From the IMG/VR virus record IMGVR_UViG_3300046007_006213, positions 1-21,769 of that record: a stretch of 21,769 nucleotides of DNA. One strand, given 5' to 3'. This stretch comes from a virus. The stretch's first letter is position 1. Every line of letters begins with the position of its first letter. A model generated the notes under the pieces. The model had not been told where the DNA came from, searched no databases, and was given only the letters and a program-made list of their open reading frames with translations. Shown here piece by piece: positions 314 through 18,920 of the stretch. A program made the position numbers and the translations under genes.

Positions 314-1540
314 ATGGCACTTTTCAATCTCACCAATATTAGATTTAACGCTCCAGGTTCAGCAAAAGGTCCCCTTGCTTCTTTGACTGAAAATGCGGAG
401 TATGCAAGAAACACTTATCGTTATCCTAGTGATTTGGGAAGTAGTGATAAAGCTCACTATATGGTTATCAACATTAACACACAAAGAATGACTAGTTATA
501 GAACTGGAGATACTGTTTTTGGAGACACTCCTCAAGCAATTAAAAACGCCAAAGATTATGGATCTTATTCTGCTGGAACAAGTCAACAATTTTCCAATTT
601 AGGTAATCTTATTAATCAGGTAGGCAAAACTGAATTTGCAGATTCATTAAACCAACAAATTAACAAATTAGGAAATACTGCACGTGAAATACGTGATGGT
701 TTTCAAAATGTTACCGCTAAAGTTATTGATAGATTACAAAATGGCAGTATAAGAGCCGAAAGAAGAATAACCGATACTGTTGCTCTGTATATGCCAGATA
801 CTTTAAGTTTTCAACAGAGTCAATCATATGATGATATTAAAGCCGGAGGTTTAGCTGCAGGAGTTTTGGCTGGAGGCCAAAGTGTTATTGATGCCGTTAC
901 AAACAGTAAAAATGCTCCAGAAGCTTTTGCAAATGCTATAGGACAAGTTTCTCCGTTTATTTTAAGTGGTTTAGCAAAACAAGCTGGTGGAATATTTCAA
1001 GTTGCTTTTTCTCAAGCATTTGGAGTGGTTCAAAATCCAATGATTGAATTAATATATTCATCACCACAATTACGAGAATTTAGATTTGATTTTCAATTTT
1101 ATCCAAGGTCAGAACAAGAGGCCAAAGAAGTTCAAAATATTATTGAGCGTTTAAGATTTCATCAAGCACCAGAAGTTGCACAGGGTGGATCTAATGGATT
1201 CTTTTTAGTTCCTCCTTCTGAATTTGATATTAGTTTTTATTATAATGGTCGAGTAAATCCAAACATACCAAAAATTTCAACCTGTGTTTTAACAAACATA
1301 GATGTAGATTATGCACCAGGTGGTTTTTCTGCTTATGAAGTTCCTGGTCAAAATGCTACAGTTGGTGGAACAGGTATGCCAGTTTCAATTCGTTTGGGAC
1401 TACAATTCAAAGAAACCGAAATTGTTACCAAAACTTCTATTCTTGGTAGATTACCAACAGCAACAGAAAAAAATAAAGATATTAGTGAAGCTTATAGACA
1501 AGCAGGTCAGGTTAATGAAAAAGGCGAGGCAACATTTTAA
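314..1540 (+). CDS. 48: gp48-like baseplate tail-tube cap protein
   Basis: This 408-residue protein resembles the gp48 tail-tube cap of aquatic T4-like phages. In T4, gp48 and its relative gp54 sit on the completed baseplate hub and prime polymerisation of the gp19 tail tube. The C-terminal half carries the most recognisable blocks: FRFDFQFYPRSEQEAKEV from about residue 255, then FLVPPSEFDISFYYNGR from about 296, followed by a region containing STCVLTNIDVDYAPGGFSAYE, and GTGMPVSIRLGLQFKETEI after that. The tube-like fold is in this half. The N-terminal half is rich in Ala, Gly and Gln and contains a stretch that may be helical (about 190-240). The protein is somewhat longer than T4 gp48 (about 364 residues). 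It is the first gene after the late promoter, and its stop overlaps the gp53 start as TAATG. No separate gp54 gene is seen in the window. Confidence 0.85.
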   Translation: MALFNLTNIRFNAPGSAKGPLASLTENAEYARNTYRYPSDLGSSDKAHYMVININTQRMTSYRTGDTVFGDTPQAIKNAKDYGSYSAGTSQQFSNLGNLINQVGKTEFADSLNQQINKLGNTAREIRDGFQNVTAKVIDRLQNGSIRAERRITDTVALYMPDTLSFQQSQSYDDIKAGGLAAGVLAGGQSVIDAVTNSKNAPEAFANAIGQVSPFILSGLAKQAGGIFQVAFSQAFGVVQNPMIELIYSSPQLREFRFDFQFYPRSEQEAKEVQNIIERLRFHQAPEVAQGGSNGFFLVPPSEFDISFYYNGRVNPNIPKISTCVLTNIDVDYAPGGFSAYEVPGQNATVGGTGMPVSIRLGLQFKETEIVTKTSILGRLPTATEKNKDISEAYRQAGQVNEKGEATF

Positions 1541-2169
1541 TGTCAAAATATTTTAGTTATTTTCCAAAAACAATCTATACTCTTGATTCGTCAAATGCCG
1601 ATGCTGTTACCAGCATAGTATCACGCTTTGCTTTTGAAAGTTCATTTAGAAATAATACTGCTGTTTATTATGAATATAATATCCAAGATAGTGATACACC
1701 AGAAATAATTGCCAATAAGTTTTATGGAGATTCAGAGAAACATTGGGTAGTATTAATGTTGAATCAAATCGTTGACCCTCAATTTGACTGGCCTCTTGAC
1801 CAAAGAACCATTATTTCTTTTATCAATGAAAAATATTCAGCTAATGCAAGTGTGGGTCAATCTGGAATAACTTGGGCTCAAGGAAATACACATTCATATT
1901 ATAAGATTGAAACAAGAACTACAAATTCAACAAACACAGAATTGCAAACAAAACTGCAAATTGATGCCAATACATATGCTAATGTTGTTTCATCAACATC
2001 TAATTTAATTTTAGAAGATGGCAATTCAATTACTATTAAGGTATCTAAAGAAACTAAATCATACTATGATTATGAAGTTGAACAAAATGAAACCAAAAGA
2101 ATAATTAAATTGTTAAAACCAGAATTTGTTTCTTCTGTTGAAGATGAGTTGAGAGCTGTTTTTAGATAA
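1540..2169 (+). CDS. 53: gp53-like baseplate wedge protein
   Basis: This 209-residue protein matches gp53, the wedge subunit that in T4 completes each wedge and clamps wedges together around the hub (T4 gp53 is about 196 residues). The N-terminus has the family hallmark YFSYFPKTIYTLD, then YYEYNIQDSDTPEIIANKFYG at about residues 43-63, and HWVVLMLNQIVDPQFDWPL up to about 86. The 46-80 stretch looks like the LysM-type fold known in gp53. The C-terminal part is less conserved and charged. The start overlaps the gp48 stop (TAATG), and its own stop overlaps the next start in the same way, so translation of these three genes is probably coupled. Confidence 0.85.
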   Translation: MSKYFSYFPKTIYTLDSSNADAVTSIVSRFAFESSFRNNTAVYYEYNIQDSDTPEIIANKFYGDSEKHWVVLMLNQIVDPQFDWPLDQRTIISFINEKYSANASVGQSGITWAQGNTHSYYKIETRTTNSTNTELQTKLQIDANTYANVVSSTSNLILEDGNSITIKVSKETKSYYDYEVEQNETKRIIKLLKPEFVSSVEDELRAVFR

Positions 2170-3491
2170 TGTCTTTTCAATTAAAACAAACTACACAATT
2201 TGAAATCAAAAAATTGGCAATCGTGTCAAAGTTTGGCACGTTTGATATATCAAGTATTTTTGTTGAATTGAATATTTTTGATAGCATATTAATGCCTTGT
2301 ATGTCTGGTAATATTGGAGTAAAAGATTCGGTTGGTTTATCTAAAAGGTTATTGTTTGATGGTTCAGAATATTTGATTGTAAATATTTCAAAATCTGGCG
2401 AAGATAATCTAACAAACATTGCAAAAACTTTTAGAATATACAAACAAACAAATAGAAAAAATGTAAATCAAAATACCGAAGCCTACATTTTGCATTTTGT
2501 TTCTGAAGAAATGATTTATTCGGAACAACAAAAAGTTAACCAACATTATACCGGAACATATGACCAAATAGCATTATCAGTATTGTTGAAATACTTAAAA
2601 GTTTCAAATGACAAAGTTGGAATTGTTGAAAAAACTAAAGGTGTCCACGATTCTATTGTGCCACTTTTAACACCATTTGAAACGGTACAATGGTTATCAA
2701 AACGAGCAGTTAATTCTGATAATAAAGCTAATTTTTTATTTTTTGAAAACAATCAAGGGTTTAATTTTGTTTCACTATCAACCCTATACGCCAGTGGCTC
2801 ACTTTTAACAATTAATTTTGATGCTAAAAATTTGAGTGATAATATTAGTAATGAATTTTTGGGTATTCGTGATTTTAATTTTACAGTATCTTTTGATTTT
2901 TTAGAAAATATAAGAAACGGATTTTTTGCAAACAAATTTATTGGGTTTGACATTCTTACTAGGAATATTCAAACAACACGATTAGATATTAATAATAATT
3001 TTAAGAGAGGCAAATCTCTAAACGATTATCCAACAGCTTCTGCTGGATTAAACAGAGAAAATAAAAATGCTTCACAAATGTATGATTCTAAGGTTGTTTT
3101 GTATCCATATCAGACAAGTAGATTCAATACGACATATGTAAAAACAAATGATAATGCAGCCGCAACCATTATTGATGATACGCATACATATCTTCCTCAA
3201 AGAAAAGCAACATTAAACAATCTTTTACAGAGAAGAATGAATATTACTTTGCCTGGTAACTTTGCAATTAGTTCTGGTTTTGTTTTGAACCTCAATGCAC
3301 ATTCTTTTTCTTTGAATGACAATAATAATGTTGATAAATCTATTTCAGGAAAGTATTTGGTTGTTGGAACAAGGCATATGATTAGGCCAGAAAAACATGA
3401 AACAATTTGTGAGATATCTTCTGATTCCACAAATAATGAATTTATTTTAGCTGGTAATCTATTAAAACAAGCTGAAGAAGGGATTTATTAA
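2169..3491 (+). CDS. gp27-type baseplate hub protein
   Basis: This 440-residue protein is probably the hub subunit equivalent to T4 gp27, the trimeric ring that joins the tube to the gp5 spike. The evidence is order and architecture: it lies directly before a gp5 OB-fold gene, and it carries a hub-like block near residues 167-205 with PFETVQWLSKRAVNSDN followed by NFLFFENNQGFNFVSL. That pattern of FExxxWLxxRA followed by FxFFExxxGFxFxSL is typical of gp27/gpD-like hubs as I remember them. The N-terminus, with short beta strands and VELNIFDSILMP near residue 33, also fits a tube-like domain. The length is close to T4 gp27 (391). Sequence identity with T4 gp27 would be low, so the name rests on position and general pattern. 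The DNA is notably AT-rich. Both ends are TAATG overlaps. Confidence 0.7.
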   Translation: MSFQLKQTTQFEIKKLAIVSKFGTFDISSIFVELNIFDSILMPCMSGNIGVKDSVGLSKRLLFDGSEYLIVNISKSGEDNLTNIAKTFRIYKQTNRKNVNQNTEAYILHFVSEEMIYSEQQKVNQHYTGTYDQIALSVLLKYLKVSNDKVGIVEKTKGVHDSIVPLLTPFETVQWLSKRAVNSDNKANFLFFENNQGFNFVSLSTLYASGSLLTINFDAKNLSDNISNEFLGIRDFNFTVSFDFLENIRNGFFANKFIGFDILTRNIQTTRLDINNNFKRGKSLNDYPTASAGLNRENKNASQMYDSKVVLYPYQTSRFNTTYVKTNDNAAATIIDDTHTYLPQRKATLNNLLQRRMNITLPGNFAISSGFVLNLNAHSFSLNDNNNVDKSISGKYLVVGTRHMIRPEKHETICEISSDSTNNEFILAGNLLKQAEEGIY

Positions 3492-3796
3492 TGGAAAATA
3501 TTGATTTCGCTGGTAAAAACGGTTTTATCTGGTGGGTTGGCGTAATTGAGAATCGTGTTGATCCATTAGCGCTTGGTCGTTGTCAAGTTCGTATTATTGG
3601 TTGGCACAACCAAGATAAAAGCAAAGTTACAACTGAAAATTTACCATGGGCTCACCCAATGTATCCATTAAATAATTCTAACACATTTTCATCACCTAAA
3701 TTAGGAGATTGGGTTGTTGGTTTTTTCTTAGATGGTGAAAATGCTCAACAACCTGTAATGATGGGCATGATGCCTGGCATTAAACAAAAGGTATAA
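3491..3796 (+). CDS. 5: gp5 N-terminal OB-fold protein (stand-alone)
   Basis: This 101-residue protein matches only the N-terminal OB domain of T4 gp5, the domain that binds the gp27 trimer. Visible signatures are FIWWVGVIENRVDPLALGR at residues 12-30, LPWAHPM at 51-57, LGDWVVGFFLDG at 71-82 and QPVMMGMMPG at 87-96. T4 gp5 is 575 residues, with an OB fold, a lysozyme domain and a beta-helix. Here the protein ends straight after the OB fold, with neither lysozyme nor helix. The two following genes appear to supply the rest of the spike. It overlaps the hub gene by one base (TAATG) and is 2 bases from the next ATG, so the hub genes form a tight translational unit. The stop is clean; there is no sign of a frameshift joining it to the next frame. 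Confidence 0.85.
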   Translation: MENIDFAGKNGFIWWVGVIENRVDPLALGRCQVRIIGWHNQDKSKVTTENLPWAHPMYPLNNSNTFSSPKLGDWVVGFFLDGENAQQPVMMGMMPGIKQKV

Positions 3797-3798
3797 CT

Positions 3799-4704
3799 AT
3801 GGCAATTATAGGCGCAAACGGAGTTGTGTATGATGAATCTGGTAATGTTACTGGAGGTGTTGATGATGTCATAGCATCCACAGTTACACCAAAACCATTT
3901 ACGCAATTAAAAAAAGAAGCTCAGACAAATGCTGGTGTTCAAGCATCAACAAGAACAAATGCTCAAGGTAAAGTAATTGAAACTAATCCACCAAAAGTTA
4001 CAAACATTGGCGATACAGCATTAATTGGTGCACCTACTGTTTCAAATTTGGCAAGAGGTATAGTTGATAATACTGGTGTTGCTGTTGCTGATAATAATCG
4101 TGAACACGCTTGCGATATTGCTGTTTATATTCAATCCACAATGGCTAAAACTAAAGTTTTAGCTGGAGATTTAGTAAGAGCAATTAGATTAGCAATTAGA
4201 AAAATTATTGATGCATTGGGTATATCTCCTGCTTCTTCTGGTATGACCGAATTTCTAAAAGACTTAGCAAGAAGAATTAAAGAAATTACTCGTTGGGTTA
4301 ATGAAAAGATTGTAGAAACGGCAAAATATTTGGATGGCATTAAAAAGATTCGTGCTATTATTGAATATATTCTTTCATTGCCTGCTAATCTTTTGGCTAT
4401 GTTTCAAAAGTGTTTGTCAGAGGCATATGGCGAATTAGCAAAAGGATTATTTTCAATTGCGAGTTCTTTGTCTGTTGATACTGGAACTTCCGGGTTAACA
4501 GATGCAGCTAAAGAAGTATTGAGTGAATCTCAATCATTGTTACAAAGCACACAAGCAGTATTGTCCATTCCAGCTCAAGCGGTTAGTAATTTAACTAGTC
4601 CAAGTGGAATGAATGATGCTGAAAAACAGGCATTAGTTTTAAGTTTATATCCAGATTCTACTGGAACAAATTATGACCCATCATCCTTTCAGGCAACAAT
4701 ATAA
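3799..4704 (+). CDS. Helical hub-associated protein of unknown function, between the two gp5 parts
   Basis: I cannot assign a known function to this 301-residue protein. Residues 1-80 are polar, Gly/Thr/Asn-rich and probably extended. Residues about 97-225 look strongly alpha-helical, starting at REHACDIAVYIQSTMAK and continuing through amphipathic stretches such as FLKDLARRIKEITRWVNEKI and IRAIIEYILSLPANLLAMFQ. The last 75 residues are Ser/Ala/Gln-rich. Only a few cysteines are seen (HAC, QKC). No T4-lysozyme-like catalytic pattern or other peptidoglycan hydrolase motif is apparent. It occupies the place that the lysozyme domain holds inside T4 gp5. I have an impression that similar helical proteins or domains accompany gp5 in cyanophages, but cannot verify it. 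It overlaps the spike gene by TAATG. A structural adaptor between OB fold and spike is the most economical guess. Confidence 0.6.
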   Translation: MAIIGANGVVYDESGNVTGGVDDVIASTVTPKPFTQLKKEAQTNAGVQASTRTNAQGKVIETNPPKVTNIGDTALIGAPTVSNLARGIVDNTGVAVADNNREHACDIAVYIQSTMAKTKVLAGDLVRAIRLAIRKIIDALGISPASSGMTEFLKDLARRIKEITRWVNEKIVETAKYLDGIKKIRAIIEYILSLPANLLAMFQKCLSEAYGELAKGLFSIASSLSVDTGTSGLTDAAKEVLSESQSLLQSTQAVLSIPAQAVSNLTSPSGMNDAEKQALVLSLYPDSTGTNYDPSSFQATI

Positions 4705-5516
4705 TGGCAACTACACCACAACCAAGTGAGTATTCGTGGACTGAACCAGAATCAGAATACGCAGCTAAATATCCATATAATAATGTAACACAAACTGAAT
4801 CTGGTCATTTTCAGGAGTTTGATGATACTCCTGGTGCCGAGCGTATTCGCACACAACATCGTTCAGGCACATATACAGAAGTTCAAGCTGATGGCACAAG
4901 AGTAAATAAAATTGTTGGTGATAACTATGAGATTGTTGCTAATAATAACAATGTAAAGATTAATGGCATCTGTAACATAACCATTGTTGGCGATTCAGTT
5001 GTTTCTGTTCAAGGAAACAAATATGAAAGAGTTACTGGTAATTATTACTTAGAAGTTGATGGTGATTATCAACAAGTTGTCAATAAAAAAGTTTCTGTTA
5101 CCTCTGGTGACGATATGGAACTAACTGTTGGTTCTTCATTAGGTCAATTTATATTAAATGCTGGTGATGCACTACAATTAAATTCTGATTTAACAGTTGA
5201 TGGAAGTATTACGGGAGGTGCAATCACATCTACAGGCTCTGTTGTTGCTGGTACAGGTATTCATGCTGGTGTTCCAGGCTCACTAAATCCTATTGCTGGT
5301 ATATCAACACTTGGTGGAATAGCCGCAGGATTTCCTGTTGCACCTCCAGTTCCTGGTATGATAGAAGCTACTGTAAGTGTTAATGCACCTTTAATTTCTG
5401 GTATTGTTGTTACTGATATTAAGGGACCAATGGAACTAATTCGTTTATTGTATGATATGCATTATCATATTGGTAACCGTGGATGGCCAACATCAACACC
5501 TACTCCTTTAATGTAA
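4704..5516 (+). CDS. gp5 C-terminal-type beta-helix spike protein
   Basis: This 270-residue protein resembles the membrane-piercing end of gp5/VgrG-like spikes. Residues about 7-60 carry EYAAKYPYNNVTQTESGH, then FQEFDDTPGAERIRTQHRSG, the segment that leads into the helix in gp5. Residues about 65-160 show repeated short strands of the V-x-G type (IVGDSVVSVQG, RVTGNYYLEVDGDY), as expected for an intertwined triple-stranded beta-helix. Residues 165-240 are Gly/Ala/Val-rich. The end reads M252-H-Y-H255-IGNRGWPTSTPTPLM; the HxH pair is similar to the iron-binding tip of P2 gpV-type spikes. There is no lysozyme domain. It should assemble as a trimer under the OB-fold ring. The start overlaps the preceding stop by one base (TAATG). 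Assignment to the spike is confident; the metal site is inference. Confidence 0.8.
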   Translation: MATTPQPSEYSWTEPESEYAAKYPYNNVTQTESGHFQEFDDTPGAERIRTQHRSGTYTEVQADGTRVNKIVGDNYEIVANNNNVKINGICNITIVGDSVVSVQGNKYERVTGNYYLEVDGDYQQVVNKKVSVTSGDDMELTVGSSLGQFILNAGDALQLNSDLTVDGSITGGAITSTGSVVAGTGIHAGVPGSLNPIAGISTLGGIAAGFPVAPPVPGMIEATVSVNAPLISGIVVTDIKGPMELIRLLYDMHYHIGNRGWPTSTPTPLM

Positions 5517-5525
5517 TGGAATATT

Positions 5526-6353
5526 ATGGCTGCTAATAGTGTATTTGCTCGTTTAGATTATAATTTTGAAGATTCAAAATTTGGTGGTTCTCTTTATTTA
5601 ACAGATGGAGCAAAAAAGTATCTATCTGCTTCAAACACAAGCCTTCCCGAATGGCAACAAAATGATATTGCTGATGGAGTGGCATCTTCTCGGTCAAGGT
5701 ATTATAAAAACCCTCACGCAGGTGTTATTGTAACTTTAACTGCCAATACCAATTTAATACTTACAGTAGCAAATACTGACCCAGCAAACACTTTTTCTGA
5801 TCCTGTGGCTGCAACTATGGCACCATTTCTTGCCAATGCAGCTAGAGGTTATATAATTGAATTGGCGTCTTTCAAATCTCATACTGACAATATATCTGGT
5901 TTAACTGCCACAACAGATGGCAATTTAACTGCACCAAACTATGATTTGGCAACAGGTGTTGGTCAACAAATTTTGAAGATTACTAATGCAACAGATGATG
6001 TGGCCAATGCTACTCCAATGTTGGGTAGTTTCACTAGTTTGTATATTGGTGACGATTTAACTGGAAATAACACTATTATTGCAAATGATTGGATTACTAT
6101 GAACTCTGCAATTGCTCCAAATGGAAATTGCACTTTAACTGGCGGTCAGGTAAACACTATCATTACTCATATCACAACAGCAAATTCGTTGATTTCTACA
6201 AGGCGAAACCACGACTTTAACTTTTATCAAAAGTCCAGAGCTATTGTGAATGATTATATCTTTCTAACTCGTTTTGATAATCTTGGAAACACACAAAATT
6301 ACATGGTAGAAAATTTGATTGGAACAGACTTTTTGAAATCAAATTTGTCCTAA
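5526..6353 (+). CDS. Uncharacterised virion-type protein between the spike gene and gp25
   Basis: This 275-residue protein has no function I can name. It lies between the spike and gp25, so a baseplate or hub role is likely. Visible features are a conserved-looking N-terminus (NSVFARLDYNFEDSKFGGSL), an Ala/Thr/Asn-rich middle with beta character (VIVTLTANTNLILTVANTD), and a C-terminal block from about residue 225 (RRNHDFNFYQKSRAIVNDYI followed by TRFDNLGNTQNYMVENLIG). I recall comparable C-terminal blocks in structural proteins of aquatic T4-like phages, without being able to name one. No signal peptide or membrane segment is seen. The ATG at 5526 is preferred over the TAATG restart at 5516, which only yields a six-codon peptide in another frame. 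Confidence 0.7.
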   Translation: MAANSVFARLDYNFEDSKFGGSLYLTDGAKKYLSASNTSLPEWQQNDIADGVASSRSRYYKNPHAGVIVTLTANTNLILTVANTDPANTFSDPVAATMAPFLANAARGYIIELASFKSHTDNISGLTATTDGNLTAPNYDLATGVGQQILKITNATDDVANATPMLGSFTSLYIGDDLTGNNTIIANDWITMNSAIAPNGNCTLTGGQVNTIITHITTANSLISTRRNHDFNFYQKSRAIVNDYIFLTRFDNLGNTQNYMVENLIGTDFLKSNLS

Positions 6354-6370: not shown

Positions 6371-6775
6371 ATGGCAACCGTAACCACAAACATCGCTCGA
6401 GAATATAGTGATTTAGACTTAAATTTCACTATTCATCCAGTCAAAAAAGACATAAACCGCCATGTTGGTGAGATGGCAGTCATCAATTCAGTAAAGAATT
6501 TGGTGTTAACTAGCCACTATGAAAGACCTTTTCAACCAGAGATTGGCAGTAATATTCGCCGTCTTTTGTTTGAAAACATGGATACAATTACCGCTTCTTC
6601 CATAGAAAGCGAAATACAACAGACAGTAACAAACTACGAACCTAGAGCTAGAATTTCCAGAATTAATGCTATCGCAGATTTTGACAGAAACGGGTTTATG
6701 GTAGAAATGGAATTCTTTGTTATCAATAGAACTGACCCAATTACAATTAATTTTTTCCTAGAACGGATTAGATAA
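6371..6775 (+). CDS. 25: gp25-like baseplate wedge protein (GPW/gp25 family)
   Basis: This 134-residue protein has the length and signature of gp25 (T4: 132 residues), a small wedge subunit that joins the gp6 ring and helps trigger sheath contraction. Visible motifs are DLNFTIHPVKKDINRHVGE at residues 16-34, HYERPFQPEIGSNIRRLLFE at 49-68, and NYEPRARI around E90-P-R92, the family's EPR core. No catalytic residues are expected, despite the family's old link to lysozyme. The gene is followed 2 bases later by gp6, keeping the order gp25-gp6 known in many contractile systems. The nearest purine-rich ribosome-binding sequence (AAGG, about 6352-6355) is rather far from the ATG, and a NATAAATA box lies just before it. 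Confidence 0.92.
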   Translation: MATVTTNIAREYSDLDLNFTIHPVKKDINRHVGEMAVINSVKNLVLTSHYERPFQPEIGSNIRRLLFENMDTITASSIESEIQQTVTNYEPRARISRINAIADFDRNGFMVEMEFFVINRTDPITINFFLERIR

Positions 6776-6777
6776 AG

Positions 6778-8832
6778 ATGGCTAACGCTCGTTTACAAAT
6801 CTCTGACCTTGATTTTGACCAAATCAAGACAAATCTAAAAGCATATCTAAAACAACAATCTCAATTTCAAGATTATGATTTTGAAGGTGCTGGCTTAAAT
6901 ATTCTTTTAGATATTCTTGCTTATAATACCCATTACAATTCTTACTATCTGAATATGGTGGCTAATGAATCGTTTTTAGATACCGCTATATTACGAGATT
7001 CAGTTGTTTCTCATGCTAAAACTTTAGGTTATATTCCATTCTCCGTTACTGCACCACGAGCTATTGTTAATGTAACAGTTGATAGTGGAACAACCACGCC
7101 GGAAACTTTAACTATTCCAAAAGGCTTTAGTTTTAGTTCTAGTATTATTGATAATGTTTCTTATAATTTTGTTGCTTTAGAAGAAACCACAGTAACCAAA
7201 TCTAACACATCTTTTTACTTTGAAAACTTGAACATCTATGAAGGTTCATTGGTAAATTATGTTTTCAATTATGTAGAAAATTCAAATCCAAAATCTGTGT
7301 TTGTTTTACCTGATAACAATATTGATACAACAACAATTTCTGTATCGGTGGCACCAAATGTTGGAAACACAGCAACACAAGTTTATAATCAAGTAACAGA
7401 CATACTTGACATTACTTCAGAATCACCTGTATATTTTTTACAAGAAAGTAAAAATGGAAACTATGAAATTTACTTTGGTGATGGTGTAGTTGGTAAAGCT
7501 CTTGATGATGGTGCAGTTGTTACAGTTACATATTTGGTTACAAACGGTGTTGTTGCCAATCAGGCCAATGGTTTTGTTGCTGCTTCTTCAATTGGTGCTT
7601 ATTCTGATATCGTTATTGATGTTGTTGATGTAGCATCTGGTGGTGCAACCCGTGAAACAGTTGATTCAATTAAATATTCCGCTGCAGCTCAATATGCAAC
7701 ACAAAACAGATTAGTTACTGTTAAAGATTATGAATCATATATTAAGAGTAAATATCCAAGTGTAGATTCTTTATCTGTTTGGGGTGGCGAAACTGAAACA
7801 CCAAAAGTATTTGGTAAAGTTTATATTGCATTAAAACCAAAAGCCAATTATTACATTTCTGAAACTGAAAAACAAAGAATTATTGATGAGATTATTAGTC
7901 CAAAATCTATTGTATCTGTTAATGCAGAGATTCGTGACCCACAATATTTGTATTTAATTGTTGAAAGTCTAGTTCAATATGACCCAAAGAAAACTTCTTT
8001 GGATGAAGGCAGCATTAAAACAAATATTCGCCAAGCAATTTTAGATTATCGTGATATTAATTTGAATAAATTTGCCGGTACATTTGTGCTTTCAAAATTG
8101 CAAGATGCAATTGATTCAACCAATGGCGATTCAATCATAGGTTCAGAGAGTGTGGTTCGTGTTCAACGCCGTTTTCAACCTCAATTAAATGAATCTGTAA
8201 GTTATACAATTAAATATAATGTTCCTATTCATCGTGGGACATTAATAAATAAATTAACTTCAACTCAATTTACAGTATTTGATGTTACTGGAGTGGTAAG
8301 AACAGCGCAGCTTGAAGAAATTCCACAATCTTTTACTGGTATATCTTCAATTCAAATTACAAATCCTGGAACAGGATACACAACCACACCAACCATTACA
8401 ATTAATGGTGACGGAACAAACGCAACAGCAGAAGCCGTAATTGTTAATGGTAGAATTCAAACAATTAACATTACTAATCGTGGTACGGACTATACTCGTG
8501 CTACAATTTCTATTACTGGTGGTAATGGATATGGTGCAGAAGCTGTTGCTGTAATTGATGGTAAAACGGGAACACTCAGAACAGTTTATTACGACAGTTT
8601 AGCTCAAAGACAAATTATTAATTCTAATGCAGGCACTATTGATTATGACAATGGTATTTTAACAATTAATAATATTCGTTTTTTAACTGTTGATTCAGAC
8701 GATGGGTTAATTCGTGTAACTATTGAAGCAGAAAAAGGAATCATTGAATCAACAAGAGATACAATTCTTACAATTGATGAAACTGATCCAATAGCAATTT
8801 CAACAATATTAGAAAAGAAATATAATTCATAA
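6778..8832 (+). CDS. 6: gp6-like baseplate wedge protein
   Basis: This 684-residue protein matches gp6 (T4: 660), which forms the continuous ring at the baseplate core and belongs to the J-like family of contractile systems. The N-terminus is diagnostic: LKAYLKQQSQFQDYDFEGAG, NILLDILAYNTHYNSYYLNM and NESFLDTAILRDSVVSHAKT within the first 85 residues. A J-like core follows, including IYFGDGVVGKALDDGAVVTV near residue 230 and SGGATRETVDSIKYSAAAQY near 285. Residues about 520-595 hold two tandem GTGY-type beta modules (NPGTGYTTTPTITINGDGT and NRGTDYTRATISITGGNGYG) that look inserted relative to T4. The start is 2 bases after the gp25 stop, and its stop overlaps the next start (TAATG). gp6 family membership is confident; the module insertion is read directly. 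Confidence 0.92.
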   Translation: MANARLQISDLDFDQIKTNLKAYLKQQSQFQDYDFEGAGLNILLDILAYNTHYNSYYLNMVANESFLDTAILRDSVVSHAKTLGYIPFSVTAPRAIVNVTVDSGTTTPETLTIPKGFSFSSSIIDNVSYNFVALEETTVTKSNTSFYFENLNIYEGSLVNYVFNYVENSNPKSVFVLPDNNIDTTTISVSVAPNVGNTATQVYNQVTDILDITSESPVYFLQESKNGNYEIYFGDGVVGKALDDGAVVTVTYLVTNGVVANQANGFVAASSIGAYSDIVIDVVDVASGGATRETVDSIKYSAAAQYATQNRLVTVKDYESYIKSKYPSVDSLSVWGGETETPKVFGKVYIALKPKANYYISETEKQRIIDEIISPKSIVSVNAEIRDPQYLYLIVESLVQYDPKKTSLDEGSIKTNIRQAILDYRDINLNKFAGTFVLSKLQDAIDSTNGDSIIGSESVVRVQRRFQPQLNESVSYTIKYNVPIHRGTLINKLTSTQFTVFDVTGVVRTAQLEEIPQSFTGISSIQITNPGTGYTTTPTITINGDGTNATAEAVIVNGRIQTINITNRGTDYTRATISITGGNGYGAEAVAVIDGKTGTLRTVYYDSLAQRQIINSNAGTIDYDNGILTINNIRFLTVDSDDGLIRVTIEAEKGIIESTRDTILTIDETDPIAISTILEKKYNS
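8338..8560 (+). repeat. Tandem GTGY beta modules in gp6
   Basis: Two successive units of about 36 residues share the pattern I-x-I-T-N-x-G-T-G/D-Y-T ... T-I-S/T-I-x-G-G/D-G ... A-x-A-V-I. They are protein-level repeats; the DNA copies have diverged. Related units occur in the next three baseplate genes. Confidence 0.7.
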
Positions 8833-12920: not shown

Positions 12921-15900
12921 ATGTCGTTAAATACCAATTTTAATGTCAATCCATATTATGATGATTTTGACGAAGATAAAAAATTTCTTCGGATATTATT
13001 TAAGCCTGGTTTTGCTGTTCAAGCTCGTGAATTAACACAATCTCAAACTATTTTACAAAAGCAAGTTGAACGCTTTGGTAGCCATGTTTTCAAAAATGGT
13101 TCAGTAGTTTCTGGTGGTGAACTGTTTATCCATAATTCAACATATCTAAATGTAGCAACTGACTACGCTGGTACAGCGGTTAATATCAATAACTTTAATG
13201 GTAAAACAATTACCAATTTGGCAGGGACAAAAACTGGCCAAGTAGTTGTTGTTTATGATGCTAACGCTGGTACTGGTGATCCAAAGACAGTCTATGTAAA
13301 ACAAATTTCAGGTAGTGCTTTTGCTGCTGGTGATACAATTACCACAGTTGAAGATGCTCCAGTTTTTGCCAATGTTTCAACAGGTGGTGCAGGAACAGGT
13401 CAACTATTTTCTGTAAATGATGGTGTATTTTTCTATGATGGTTTCTTTCTTAAAAATTCAGCACAAACAATTGCAATTAGTAAATATGGAACATCTTCTA
13501 ATGCAAGAATTGGTTTTGAAATTACAGAATCTATTGTTGAATATACACAAGATACATCATTATTGGATCCAGCACAAGATGCTTCCAACTTTCAAGCTCC
13601 AGGTGCAGACCGATTTAAGATTGATTTAATTCTTTCTAGCAGAGCTCTTGACTCTGCTGACGATACACAATTTATTGAATTAGCTAGAGTTCAAAATGGA
13701 ACTTTATCTTACGCATTAATTTACCCACAGTATGCTGTGCTTGAAGATACTTTAGCACGCAGAACATATGATGAATCTGGTAATTATACTGTTCGACAAT
13801 TCAAAATTGCACTAGAAACAAGTGCAGCTAATACCGCAAAGGCTAATGTCATTCTATCGCCAGGTAAGGCATATGTTTATGGTTACGAATATGAAACCAT
13901 TGCACCAACAACAATTACATTTGATAAACCACGCACAACCGATTCAGTTGCAAATAAACGACTGACTGCTGACTATGGTTATTATGTGTATTCAAATACG
14001 CATTTTGGTTCTTTACCAATTAACAGTTTACAAACAGTAGATTTACATTGTGTATCAAATAGCACAATCAATGTAACAACTGCCGGTACGATTACTAACA
14101 CTAAGATTGGTACAGCTCGTGTTAAATCTATTGCATTTGATTCGGCATCTAATACACAAAATTCTGCAACATACACCTATCGCACATACTTGTTTGATGT
14201 AAATGTTGGTTCTATTACAGGTGGTAATGTAGTTGTTTTAGGAACAAACACGGGTTATGTTCAGATTGCAAATAGTATAACTGGTTCACAATTATATTCT
14301 ACTGCTAATAGTGCTTATACTGGTTCTAAGTTTAGGATTTTAACTGGTCCTGGTGCCGGCGAAACACCAAAAACAATTACCAACTACAATGGTGCAACTC
14401 AGACAATTCAACTTTCTGAACCTTTTATTAACACACCAAATTCTTTATCTAACTGGTCTATTGATTTTGAAGTTAATGATATTAAATCTTTATCAGTAGT
14501 TAGTGGTACAACTCGTTTGGCCGCAGCTGATATTGATATTTCATCAAAAGATCCGGCTTCAACATATAACGACACATTTATTTCAGATAGTAACCTTGAG
14601 CCATTATTGTTTAATCTTGGCCAAAACTATATTGCACAAAACACAATTGCCGATTTTTCATACTCTTATAAGCGTTTGTATGAATCTCAGTCATTTTCAT
14701 CTTCGGATTCTCCAGCACTAACTGTTGGTACTGGTGAAACAATTTCTGCTGCTACAAGTTCTTCTGCAAAGGCTGAGAATTATCAAATTGTTGTAACAAC
14801 TGCAGGCACATCACCATATACTGTTGGTCAAATTATTCCTGCTAATCTGTTTACTGTTGATACTGGCACTCGTAAAATTACTGTTACATCTGGTAACAAC
14901 ATGGTTGCAAACATTACTGCAACAATTGATGCAAGTAATCCTGGTTCAAAAGGTAAAACATATGTTGGTGCCAATTCTACTGTGCAAACATCTGACGGAA
15001 CAAGCATTTTTGCAAACAATGGAGTAATTCTCTATACTGCAAATGGCCAAGTTCATATTATGGCTAACACAGTTTATAAAACTCCAGGTTCCGTTCAATC
15101 ATTGTTTGTTCCTGATGTCATTGAATTGGTTTCTGTTTTAGATTTTAATGGTAATCAAATTACTGTTGCTAACTCAACAACTGCAACCAATGTTACATCA
15201 CGATACACATTAGATAATGGCCAAAGAGATTCATTTTATGACCATTCATCTATTAGATTAAAAGCTGGCTCATTGGCACCTAATGGCCCGTTGCTTGTTA
15301 GGTTTAATCGTTTCAGTTCATCTGGTGCAGGATTCTTTACCGTAGATTCTTATGTTGGATATAATTACGGAAGTATTCCTTCCTACACTTCTCAGGCAAT
15401 TGGGCAAATTTATCAATTAAGAGATTGCCTTGATTACAGACCTGTTAGGTCGATACCGACAACACCAGCGACAGCAAACACCGTCAGCTTTGATGTTGAT
15501 TCAACCACGACTGGTCCTAAGATTCCAGAGAATGGTTCCGACATACTTTTAGATTATCAATATTATCTACCAAGAATTGACAAGGTAATATTAAACAAAA
15601 ATCGTAACTTTGAAGTTCTTCAAGGCAATCCATCTTTGACACCAGTTGTGCCTAATGACAAAGACGGTGCCATGACTTTGTATATACTCCGTGAAAGAGC
15701 ATATGTTGCCAACACATCTGATATTGATGTTGAATATATTGATAATAAACGTTATACAATGCGTGATATAGGTAACATTGATAAACGTATTGGTAATTTA
15801 GAGTATTATACTTCACTTTCTTTGCTTGAACAAAGTGCATTAAATAAACAAGATTTGACCATTTTAGATTCTACAAATTTACCACGATTTAAGAATGGTA

Positions 15901-18900
15901 TTGTTGTAGATTCATTTAACGGCACATCCGTTGCTGATGTAACTAATACTGATTATTCTATTGCTGTTGACCCTAAGAGAAAAGAAATTAGGCCAACATT
16001 TAACATTACATCACACCTATTAACATTTGATTCCGCTAATTCATCTAACTATTTGAAGGCTGGTCCAATTGTGATGCCTACAGCAACACATACTGTTTTT
16101 GTTGACCAAAACAAATCTTCAAAAGTATATAATATTAATCCATTTAATATTGTAAACTACATTGGTAAAATTCAATTAGACCCACCATCAGATGTTTGGA
16201 TTGATACAGACAAACAACCAGATGTTCTTGTAAACCTTGAAGGTGATAGAGATGCATGGGCTTTAATTACTGCAAATGCATACAATTATGAATGGGGTAA
16301 TTGGGAAACTTATTGGACAGGAACCTCAGAAACAACAAGTGTTCGTGGCGAAGGCGGTTGGATTAATGGTCAAGCAAACTTAGGCGGAGTTTGGAATGGC
16401 CAAGGCGGCGGCGGTGGCGCAGGTGCAGCTTGGGTTCAATCATCAGTAGTTACAACAACATCAGCTCAAACTCGCTCAGGTACATTTTCTAGGGTTGTTC
16501 CATCAACCATTACTCAATCATTGGGTGACCGTGTTATTGATGTGTCAATTATTCCTTATATGCGTAACCGTGGTGTATTGTTTAGTTGTTCTGATTTCAA
16601 ACCAACCACAGAGTTATATGGTTTCTTTGATAACATTAGTGTAAACAAATACATTGCTCGTGCAAACAAGTTCACATTAAGTTCTAATAACTTAGGTTAT
16701 ATCACACAGTCTGGTAATCCAGAAGCTGTGAATGTTACCAATACCGCAACAAGCACCGTTAACGCAACAGCATTTATTGTTCGCACATCAAATAGGGAAG
16801 CATTTGTAGTTAATTTGAGTCCTTCAACATTGTTGAATGGTGCAACTATGAATTTGGTTGGCCAATCTAGTGGCACAACAATTAAGATTAACGGGTATGA
16901 CCACTATTCTGGATTTGTAACTTCTGCTACATCTAATACAATTGTATTGGCTGTGGATGCTACAAGTGCAAATAATACTGGTGATTATGCTGGTTCAACA
17001 GTTTATATTGTTTCTGGTACTGGTGCTGGTCAATCTGCAACAGTTTCTTCTTACACCGCAGGAACAAGAACATTAACAATCGTTGGAACATGGACAACAA
17101 CACCAACATCTAGTTCTGTTTACTCAATTGGTAATCTAACAACAACATCCGCAGGCGATGTTGCTGGTGTATTTAATATTCCAAATGGTGTGTTCCGCAT
17201 TGGTGAGAAAAACTTCCGATTAATTGACAATTCAACTGGTGATATTGGTTCATCTTCTACAAACGGAGATGCCACATTCTTTGCACAAGGTATTTTGCAA
17301 AGAACAGAAAACACAATTATTTCTGCTACTGTTCCAACAACTCAGCGTGTTGCTGTTAATGACAATAGAGTTGTTACGACAACAGCTGTTGCAGAGCGTG
17401 TTATTGGTTGGTATGACCCATTAGCACAAACATTCTTAGTATCTCCAACAAATTACCCACAAGGTATTTTCTTATCTAAGGCTCGTTTCTGCTTTAAGAC
17501 AAAAGATCCAACTGTACCTGTTACACTACAAGTTCGTTCTGTTGTAAATGGATATCCTTCAACATCTTTGGTTTATCCATATACGACAGTTACATTAACA
17601 CCAGATAAAGTTAAAACAACTACATCTCCTAATTTGGATGATCCAACCAAATACACAGAATTTGTATTTGATTCTCCAATATTCTTGCAACCTGGTGAAC
17701 ATTGCTTTGTGTTAGCATCTAATTCTAACAAGTATGAAACATATGCGGCTGAAATTGGTAAATTAGATACGGTATCAGCAAGACAAATTTCAGAGCAACC
17801 ATATCAAGGTTCATTGTTCTTATCACAAAACGGTTCTACATGGACTGCTGAGCAAAACTCAGATTTAATGTTTAGATTGTTTAGATATACATTTGATACT
17901 GGTACAACTCAGGCACAATTTAATGTTAATTATCCATCTGCAAACACAGTATATGATTTGATGCATTTAATTTCAAATGATGTTTCTGTTGAAAATACTT
18001 CAATTTCATATCAGTTTAATTCTGAAAAAGCTGTGACTGGCGGTAAAACAGGCTTCTTGCCATTTACTCCTTTGACAGACTATCCAATGACCGATGGTAA
18101 TGGACGCCGTGTATTAACAACAACTGCTAATACGACATTGACAGTTAAAGCTACAATGGCAACCAACAACCCTGACATTGCACCATTTATTGATACTTCA
18201 CGCATAAGCATGATTGCGGTTGAAAACAATATTAATGATTTACCATTAAGTAATTCTGGAATTGTATTGTCAAGTGGTGGAACAGGTTACTCTACTAATG
18301 CAAATGCAATTGTAACAATTACTGGCGGTGGCGGTTCAGGTGCAACTGCAGCTGCTGTTGTAACCAATAATGTGGTCACATCGGTATACTTGACTGCTGC
18401 TGGTTCTGGTTACGAAACATCTCCAACAATTACATTGACAGATGCAAATACAACACCAGGTACCGGTGCAACAATCACCTATAACGGTGAAGATAAGAAA
18501 TCCGGTGGTAACTCTAATGTTCGTTACATTACTCGCAAGGTTAATTTAGCAGACGGGTTTGATTCTGGTGATTTGCGTGTTTATCTAACCGCATATAAAC
18601 CATCAAGCTCAAACATTCGTGTTTACTATAAAGTATTGTCTATCTCTGATCCTGATGCATTTGAAGATAAAAACTATCAGTTAATGACACAGTTGAATAA
18701 TACCAATTTTGTGTCGGCTAACTATAATGACTATCGTGAAATCTCATATGCTCCAGGTGTCAACGGCACAGCAAATAATTCTGTAAGTTACACTTCAGGT
18801 TCCACTTCGTTTAGTAACTTCAGAACATTTGCTATTAAGATTGTATTGACTGGCACATCAACAACTGATGTTCCTAAGGTGCGTGATTTCCGTGCAATTG

Positions 18901-18920
18901 CTTTACCTGCAGGTAGTTAA
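12921..18920 (+). CDS. Very large DUF4815-type baseplate/tail-fibre structural protein
   Basis: This 1999-residue protein is the largest in the window. Its N-terminus (FNVNPYYDDFDEDKKFLRIL, then FKPGFAVQARELTQSQTILQ) matches the phage family I know as DUF4815, found in virion proteins of aquatic T4-like phages; no function is proven. The N-terminal family region covers roughly the first 350 residues or more. Beta modules follow. A short module with GAG-E/Q and a later TxTxxxxW occurs near 473 and again near 1364. A Gly/Trp-rich segment spans 1143-1171. GWYDPLAQTFLVSP, a phage tail motif, lies near 1494. GTGY units start near 1787. The end (from about 1868) is KVNLADGFDSGDLRVYLTAY and ASxNxRYY-like strands. 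Position after gp8 suggests it takes the peripheral baseplate or fibre-anchor place of T4 gp9/gp10. No frameshift is seen across 6 kb. Confidence 0.75.
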   Translation: MSLNTNFNVNPYYDDFDEDKKFLRILFKPGFAVQARELTQSQTILQKQVERFGSHVFKNGSVVSGGELFIHNSTYLNVATDYAGTAVNINNFNGKTITNLAGTKTGQVVVVYDANAGTGDPKTVYVKQISGSAFAAGDTITTVEDAPVFANVSTGGAGTGQLFSVNDGVFFYDGFFLKNSAQTIAISKYGTSSNARIGFEITESIVEYTQDTSLLDPAQDASNFQAPGADRFKIDLILSSRALDSADDTQFIELARVQNGTLSYALIYPQYAVLEDTLARRTYDESGNYTVRQFKIALETSAANTAKANVILSPGKAYVYGYEYETIAPTTITFDKPRTTDSVANKRLTADYGYYVYSNTHFGSLPINSLQTVDLHCVSNSTINVTTAGTITNTKIGTARVKSIAFDSASNTQNSATYTYRTYLFDVNVGSITGGNVVVLGTNTGYVQIANSITGSQLYSTANSAYTGSKFRILTGPGAGETPKTITNYNGATQTIQLSEPFINTPNSLSNWSIDFEVNDIKSLSVVSGTTRLAAADIDISSKDPASTYNDTFISDSNLEPLLFNLGQNYIAQNTIADFSYSYKRLYESQSFSSSDSPALTVGTGETISAATSSSAKAENYQIVVTTAGTSPYTVGQIIPANLFTVDTGTRKITVTSGNNMVANITATIDASNPGSKGKTYVGANSTVQTSDGTSIFANNGVILYTANGQVHIMANTVYKTPGSVQSLFVPDVIELVSVLDFNGNQITVANSTTATNVTSRYTLDNGQRDSFYDHSSIRLKAGSLAPNGPLLVRFNRFSSSGAGFFTVDSYVGYNYGSIPSYTSQAIGQIYQLRDCLDYRPVRSIPTTPATANTVSFDVDSTTTGPKIPENGSDILLDYQYYLPRIDKVILNKNRNFEVLQGNPSLTPVVPNDKDGAMTLYILRERAYVANTSDIDVEYIDNKRYTMRDIGNIDKRIGNLEYYTSLSLLEQSALNKQDLTILDSTNLPRFKNGIVVDSFNGTSVADVTNTDYSIAVDPKRKEIRPTFNITSHLLTFDSANSSNYLKAGPIVMPTATHTVFVDQNKSSKVYNINPFNIVNYIGKIQLDPPSDVWIDTDKQPDVLVNLEGDRDAWALITANAYNYEWGNWETYWTGTSETTSVRGEGGWINGQANLGGVWNGQGGGGGAGAAWVQSSVVTTTSAQTRSGTFSRVVPSTITQSLGDRVIDVSIIPYMRNRGVLFSCSDFKPTTELYGFFDNISVNKYIARANKFTLSSNNLGYITQSGNPEAVNVTNTATSTVNATAFIVRTSNREAFVVNLSPSTLLNGATMNLVGQSSGTTIKINGYDHYSGFVTSATSNTIVLAVDATSANNTGDYAGSTVYIVSGTGAGQSATVSSYTAGTRTLTIVGTWTTTPTSSSVYSIGNLTTTSAGDVAGVFNIPNGVFRIGEKNFRLIDNSTGDIGSSSTNGDATFFAQGILQRTENTIISATVPTTQRVAVNDNRVVTTTAVAERVIGWYDPLAQTFLVSPTNYPQGIFLSKARFCFKTKDPTVPVTLQVRSVVNGYPSTSLVYPYTTVTLTPDKVKTTTSPNLDDPTKYTEFVFDSPIFLQPGEHCFVLASNSNKYETYAAEIGKLDTVSARQISEQPYQGSLFLSQNGSTWTAEQNSDLMFRLFRYTFDTGTTQAQFNVNYPSANTVYDLMHLISNDVSVENTSISYQFNSEKAVTGGKTGFLPFTPLTDYPMTDGNGRRVLTTTANTTLTVKATMATNNPDIAPFIDTSRISMIAVENNINDLPLSNSGIVLSSGGTGYSTNANAIVTITGGGGSGATAAAVVTNNVVTSVYLTAAGSGYETSPTITLTDANTTPGTGATITYNGEDKKSGGNSNVRYITRKVNLADGFDSGDLRVYLTAYKPSSSNIRVYYKVLSISDPDAFEDKNYQLMTQLNNTNFVSANYNDYREISYAPGVNGTANNSVSYTSGSTSFSNFRTFAIKIVLTGTSTTDVPKVRDFRAIALPAGS
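16347..16433 (+). other. Gly/Trp-rich linker in the DUF4815-type protein
   Basis: Residues 1143-1171 read as a run of Gly with Trp, Asn and Gln, ending GQGGGGGAGAAW. The DNA here is richer in G and C than its surroundings. It probably forms a flexible hinge between the N-terminal and C-terminal halves. Confidence 0.5.
18256..18480 (+). repeat. Tandem GTGY beta modules near the end of the DUF4815-type protein
   Basis: Two units, GGTGYSTNANAIVTITGGGG and AGSGYETSPTITLTDANTT, are followed by GTGATITYNG. They are close in pattern to those in gp6, the gp7-position gene and gp8. Confidence 0.65.

Follow-up and report, generated by a model that had tools for sequence, protein, structure and literature searches.

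A T4-like cell-puncturing hub in which gp5 is probably made as three proteins

In bacteriophage T4, the lysozyme activity of the baseplate protein gp5 is unleashed by cleavage of the chain together with loss of its C-terminal part, gp5C. The cleavage site, Ser351/Ala352, lies in the linker joining the lysozyme domain to the beta-helix, as described in a portion of PMC3004832. A gp5 without lysozyme is already known: the record of phage KVP40 itself states that the domain is lacking, and the sections of PMC9024508 on phage P1 report a lysozyme-free gp5 and an SLT domain near the end of the tape measure protein Sit, so a lysozyme carried on the tape measure is known as well. Here, we analyzed an IMG/VR virus record (IMGVR_UViG_3300046007_006213; the whole stretch of 21,769 bases is referred to below as the window) in which the counterpart of gp5 is distributed over three adjoining genes encoding an OB-fold protein, a helical protein, and a trimeric spike. 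We consider it probable that these genes belong to a T4-like myovirus and specify its cell-puncturing hub, with gp5 produced as three separate proteins.

OB, helical, and spike genes at the gp5 locus

A sequence-only reading of the window had claimed that OB fold and beta-helix are encoded separately on either side of a helical gene and that a lysozyme signature is missing. The three reading frames were present as described (Table 1), and both terminal assignments held. The OB protein scored 25.5 bits against Pfam Gp5_OB (cut-off, 25), matched the N-terminal end of gp5 PHROGs (phrog_430, 2.8e-31), and aligned to residues 6 to 103 of T4 gp5 among the PDB sequences (8e-10), which places it with the N-terminal OB domain of T4 gp5. 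The spike protein matched positions 315 to 464 of phrog_430 and residues 369 to 490 of T4 gp5 (3e-21), as expected for a trimerization domain of the gp5C type; its score against Pfam Gp5_trimer_C itself was slightly under the cut-off. The claimed lack of lysozyme was also borne out, as no lysozyme family in Pfam or PHROG was matched by the OB, helical, or spike protein, and nothing in these three proteins corresponds to the lysozyme activity released in T4.

The border of the spike gene falls close to the T4 cut. In the spike protein, residue 5 aligns to T4 gp5 residue 369, so the gene begins at the T4 equivalent of residue 365, that is, 13 to 14 residues past the cleavage site as it is given in the cited portion of the T4 account. 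Rather than one chain cut at Ser351/Ala352, separate genes are found here, and a split in place of proteolytic maturation would be compatible with these positions. The gp27-position gene and the OB gene, as well as the helical and spike genes, overlap in TAATG, and only two bases separate the OB gene from the helical gene. These junctions suggest translational coupling.

Relatives were collected by scanning IMG/VR with the OB protein (best 80 of 501 encoding relatives) and with the helical protein or its alignments (6 loci, best 80 of 151, and best 80 of 589). The open reading frames (ORFs) of 238 environmental loci were sorted by profile hidden Markov models, and removal of one non-gp5 locus (L186) left 237. 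The same three genes recurred in the same order, which indicates that the split is neither due to chance nor an assembly error. OB and helical domains were encoded in separate ORFs at 163 of the 237 loci and in a single ORF at 61; the remainder comprised 7 loci with OB alone, 4 without OB in view, and 2 with OB and spike without a helical match. The spike, visible at 217 loci, never shared an ORF with either of the other domains (0/217). Since several loci share contigs, the count was repeated for 177 distinct sequence sets, the blank L186 included, yielding 111 split, 54 fused, 7 OB-only, 2 helical-plus-spike, and 2 OB-plus-spike sets. All 157 distinct sets that show a spike encode it in a gene of its own. 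In the first set of relatives, the fused OB-helix proteins were 318 to 501 amino acids (aa) long.

The helical gene had been regarded as unrelated to its neighbors in the sequence-only reading, and this part of the claim did not survive. Its fusion to OB at the 61 loci argues that the 301-aa protein is not an unrelated insertion. Judged by sequence, it forms the second domain in the half that resembles gp5*, located where T4 has lysozyme. A tree calculated from spike sequences only, with the window among its 150 rows (50 fused, 100 split), contained 6 changes between the split and fused states, and well supported branches force at least 5 of them. Around the window, the smallest group that is both well supported and mixed in state consisted of 15 rows, 8 split and 7 fused. 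As the tree is unrooted, the direction of these changes is not fixed. Their repetition, combined with a spike that is always separate, indicates that the OB/helix border is labile and the helix/spike border stable.

Several variants were observed among the relatives. An ORF of approximately 70 to 104 aa stands between the OB and helical genes in L015 (3864 to 4082), L022 (6300 to 6533), and others; none is present in the window. In L253 (294 to 2099) and L260 (866 to 2524), OB belongs to a 552- to 601-aa protein with a different long helical stretch that has no HxC motif, and the spike is separate; a 168-kb contig (L285) shows a relative of this type. The spike of L087 (2628 to 3214) occupies two ORFs of 141 and 60 aa, an arrangement confined to that contig and possibly an assembly error.

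Helical protein, spike tip, and wall-cutting enzyme

The 301-aa protein yielded no confident family match in Pfam, PHROG, or the PDB, and tblastn with it or with a second member of the family found nothing in 50,697 phage records. For 31 helical homologues, no lysozyme family was among the matches listed (25 families of 100 and of 114). The protein did not resemble the central lysozyme domain of T4 gp5, and with respect to the phage lysozymes PF00959 and PF18013 it showed neither a family match nor a conserved catalytic acid. In 76 aligned helical cores drawn from the whole clade, only H23, C25, P115, and C125 (residues 103, 105, 195, and 205 of the window's protein) were invariant, and no Glu or Asp was conserved at 90% or more. 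Helical proteins encoded separately ranged from 214 to 440 aa. AlphaFold2 predicted a mostly helical protein at low confidence, with a pLDDT of 45.7 from 31 sequences and of 54.6 for the core from 76 sequences; Foldseek with the low-confidence model returned no PDB fold match at E <= 0.001. Taken together, the lack of a conserved acid, a family, and a fold match makes a catalytic fold in the helical protein unlikely, as far as models of such low confidence allow. The possibility, named beforehand, that the 301-aa protein hides a lysozyme fold was thus countered at the level of family and catalytic residue, the models being too poor for the fold itself to be judged. These sequences define a conserved family of putative hub proteins that is marked by HxC and has no known fold.

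Two sets of weak similarities of the helical family were set aside. The fused proteins align over long stretches to phrog_1922, possibly through their OB part, and weak matches to tape measure PHROGs look like generic helix matches.

Of 143 distinct complete spikes, 138 have an HxH motif within the last 60 residues, compared with 4.4% of shuffled tails, and a smaller count restricted to the last 50 residues gave 62 of 66. Both histidines are invariant in an alignment of 22 spikes, which is not independent evidence because its members were chosen from those bearing HxH. In the spikes of P2, phi92, and R2 pyocin, HxH forms an iron site, according to the part of PMC6116203 that deals with them. 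The spike here shares with the P2 gpV type an HxH near the C terminus; no sequence relationship of its tip to a solved HxH spike was found, and the likeness is therefore one of motif only. The PAAR family (PF05488) was found in none of 11 related records, several of which are fragments, and in both controls, KVP40 and RB49, whose gp5 proteins lack HxH over their final 60 residues. The absence of PAAR from the relatives is in agreement with a self-capping spike. Instead of carrying a PAAR cap, the spike seems to be closed at its tip by a histidine metal site of its own, which would presumably bind metal through HxH.

If gp5 carries no lysozyme, the cell wall would have to be digested from elsewhere or need no digestion, as the sequence-only reading had anticipated, and the relatives pointed to a protein that may serve this role. 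In those with enough sequence, the genes gp4, gp2, gp54, gp26, and gp51 run divergently from gp48 and are followed by a large protein, the same order as for the putative tape measure of pelagiphage HTVC008M. Twelve records were examined at this tape-measure position, 2 found by lysozyme-family searches, 7 by similarity to the first, and 3 by reading onward from gp51. A tape measure profile search of 11 further records, run without a positive control, returned nothing; 3 of these were then read after gp51. Seven of the 12 proteins bore a muralytic signature, assigned to three Pfam families and an endolysin PHROG. Pfam domains scored above cut-off in six, namely PF18013 in L268, L273, L281, and L282, PF00959 in L284, and GH19, barely, in L298; the seventh, L272, matched the endolysin PHROG (2e-21). 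The nearest relative with a tape measure region (L014) has an OB protein 93% identical to that of the window over the aligned part and is split in the same way; its protein at this position, L273, scored 122.6 bits against PF18013. These findings in relatives uphold the expectation of a wall-cutting domain outside gp5, and the phage of the window presumably has such a hydrolase-bearing tail protein.

Searches for hydrolase families at genome scale were run on partial records of relatives. PF00959 was present in 0 of 9 and 1 of 14 records, SLT in 1 of 9 and 0 of 14, and PF18013 in 4 of 14; M15, NlpC/P60, and M23 were each found in 0 of 9. It was also observed that the tape-measure-position proteins L268, L272, L273, L279 to L284, and L298 end in C-terminal domains from differing hydrolase families, like cassettes, and that nine share a similar N terminus.

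Proposed hub, its rivals, and the surrounding operon

The hub that we favor would work as follows. The products of the OB and helical genes would be the counterpart of T4 gp5*, seated as a trimer on a gp27-like hub, with the helical domain filling the place of the lysozyme. The spike gene would be the counterpart of gp5C. Separate, tightly coupled genes would give by translation what T4 gets by cutting one chain, the three proteins would assemble around the trimeric spike, and this spike would close its own tip with an HxH metal site, not with a PAAR cap. The anatomy is well supported; it was read from gene order, OB-helix fusions, the always-separate spike, and HxH, along with the absence of PAAR and the lysozyme-like tail domains in relatives. 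The division of labor is likely, and we infer the assembly and stoichiometry of the three-protein hub. A further-reading proposal remains tentative, with slightly less than an even chance in our estimate: that the lineage has fixed the T4 cut in its genome, with a permanently separate spike bordered at the former cleavage site, an HxC helical protein as third hub component in place of the lysozyme, a metal self-cap, and the hydrolase as a swappable cassette at the end of the tape measure.

Several observations weigh against the three-protein hub. Its proteins are known here from genes and not from virion proteomics, and the helical protein was modeled poorly in both predictions. We do not claim that the helical domain is homologous to the likewise helical middle part of gp5 in cyanophages, since HH-suite gave a probability of 22% and the best domain E-value was approximately 0.3. 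Five of the 143 distinct spikes lack HxH, and the spike tip has no PDB sequence match to the solved HxH spikes. Regarding the enzyme, the 21.8-kb window ends before the tape measure region, so that it is seen in relatives only; among these, L279 and L297 matched only PHROGs of unknown function, and L280, L283, and L299 gave no hydrolase or other Pfam or PHROG family.

The helical gene could be an unrelated neighbor, for instance an assembly chaperone or an internal tail protein, whose fusions to OB arose secondarily between co-transcribed genes. Its lack of a family match, the wide length range of the separate proteins, and a spike tree that leaves the direction of change unfixed would all suit such a neighbor, yet it is joined to OB at 61 of 237 loci, is not joined to the spike at any, and has a tightly fixed position between the two; we regard this explanation as unlikely. 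That the helical protein is instead an unrecognized peptidoglycan hydrolase, the enzyme never having left gp5, seems very improbable. It does occupy the place of T4 lysozyme, where other phages have GH19, Phage_lysozyme2, M15, or CHAP, but no lysozyme family was matched, H, C, P, and C are the only invariant residues in 76 sequences with no acid at 90%, the best model consists of long helices throughout (at low confidence), and lysozyme families occur in relatives on a different tail protein.

A further suggestion is that phages of this clade enter the cell purely by mechanical force and that the tape-measure-position domains are not essential. Penetration of this kind has been proposed for phage phiCD508 in a section of PMC11948020, and it would agree with the 3 of 12 tape-measure-position proteins without a family, the 2 of 12 matching only PHROGs of unknown function, and the several hydrolase searches of large relatives that came back empty. 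Recognizable muralytic domains in 7 of the 12 speak against it, and we consider it quite unlikely. Breakage of one gp5 gene by a sequencing or assembly frameshift, which had been set beforehand as a refuting observation, can be given negligible probability. Beyond the single gene of T4 nothing favors it, and it is refuted by the relatives: many independent contigs repeat these borders, each gene having a start and a stop of its own, and the spike is separate in every distinct set that shows it. Start/stop overlaps typical of coupled genes also speak against a frameshift.

The three genes proposed to encode the three-protein hub lie in a T4-type baseplate operon (Table 1), followed farther along the window by a wedge-type protein, a gp8-like protein, and a 1,999-aa DUF4815 protein. 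The protein encoded immediately upstream of OB is taken to be gp27 on the basis of its position, its PHROG annotation, and the annotation in other records; a profile built from 18 sequences found no counterpart in the PDB. The conserved 275-aa protein gave no family in Pfam and PHROG scans. It is approximately 25 to 99% identical across relatives, and its gene occupies the site that 5.1 and the PAAR gene 5.4 have in RB49, KVP40, and other T4-like phages. The DUF4815 protein (12921 to 18920), within the baseplate operon, has a long similarity to phrog_358, whose function is unknown. In one relative (L082, 7658 to 9711), the gp6-like gene is present as two ORFs of 138 and 527 aa.

Table 1. Features of the gp5 locus and adjoining baseplate genes in the window
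Feature	Coordinates	Strand	Basis
gp48-like baseplate tail tube cap	314..1540	+	phrog_230, 1.1e-51
gp53-like baseplate wedge protein	1540..2169	+	Pfam Phage_gp53, 47.4 bits (cut-off 21); phrog_232
gp27-position hub protein, directly 5' of OB gene	2169..3491	+	phrog_350 'tail protein', 6.1e-74; position
gp5 OB domain as separate gene, 101 aa	3491..3796	+	Gp5_OB; phrog_430; T4 gp5 match
Helical protein, 301 aa, in place of T4 lysozyme	3799..4704	+	OB fusions in relatives; alignments
H-x-C motif, helical protein residues 103-105	4105..4113	+	Alignment of 76 sequences
gp5C-like trimeric spike gene, 270 aa	4704..5516	+	T4 gp5 369-490; phrog_430, 4.2e-50
HxH motif near spike C terminus, residues 253-255	5460..5468	+	138 of 143 distinct spikes
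Conserved 275-aa gene, between spike and gp25-like genes	5526..6353	+	Conserved in relatives
gp25-like wedge	6371..6775	+	GPW_gp25, 41.4 bits (cut-off 27.2)
gp6-like wedge	6778..8832	+	Gp6-like_1st, 79.3 bits (cut-off 27); phrog_219

Comparison with known cell-puncturing devices

No description of a three-gene gp5 split was found in searched listings of open-licence PMC papers. The region following OB was surveyed in ten gp5 proteins from nine cultured phages. It holds GH19 in BUCT-ZZ01, Phage_lysozyme2 in Cr30 and OC, an additional M15 peptidase in OC, CHAP in ORM_20, and a VanY-like domain, below cut-off, in Melnitz; no enzyme was matched there in the gp5 proteins of X1, Syn33, KVP40, and HTVC008M. 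By sequence, this slot is a swappable module, filled by different phages with different hydrolases, helices, or nothing. It should be noted that 'tail lysozyme' labels inherited through gp5 homology can be wrong.

Three phages showed further arrangements. The gp5 of Ochrobactrum phage ORM_20 (L097, 3474 to 4385) consists of OB and CHAP, with no spike in that ORF, and the gp5 of Rhizobium phage RL38J1 (L099, 3459 to 4325) resembles this type by eye. In phage C48C1 (L098, 3483 to 5676), an OB-spike gp5 of only 196 aa is followed by a 76-aa ORF and then by a 451-aa protein that looks helical by eye and has no known function.

Among described systems, P1 shares a gp5-like needle without lysozyme, whereas its OB and beta-helix belong to one gp5 and no helical middle protein is reported in the sections of PMC9024508 cited above. 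The gp5 proteins of KVP40, HTVC008M, and pelagiphage Mosig likewise combine OB and spike without lysozyme; they differ in being one fused chain of 350 to 421 aa whose last 60 residues lack HxH, and KVP40 additionally has a PAAR gene. Methylophilales phage Melnitz has OB and spike in two adjoining genes, but its OB gene includes the weak VanY-like domain instead of a helical one. The spikes of P2 gpV, phi92, and R2 pyocin have an HxH near the C-terminal end in common with the spike described here, whose shaft is gp5C-like and which has no detectable sequence similarity to them.

The closest likeness is to the (gp27-gp5*-gp5C)3 complex of T4. OB, a middle domain, and a gp5C-type spike are common to both, as are the neighbors gp48, gp53, gp25, and gp6 and a border near the maturation cut. 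The differences from T4 are three genes instead of one, the missing lysozyme, the HxH end, and the failure to find PAAR in relatives. The T4 cut can now be put as a testable question, namely, whether a covalent OB-spike precursor is needed or three domains are enough. The arrangement found in the window is a variant of an already known machine.

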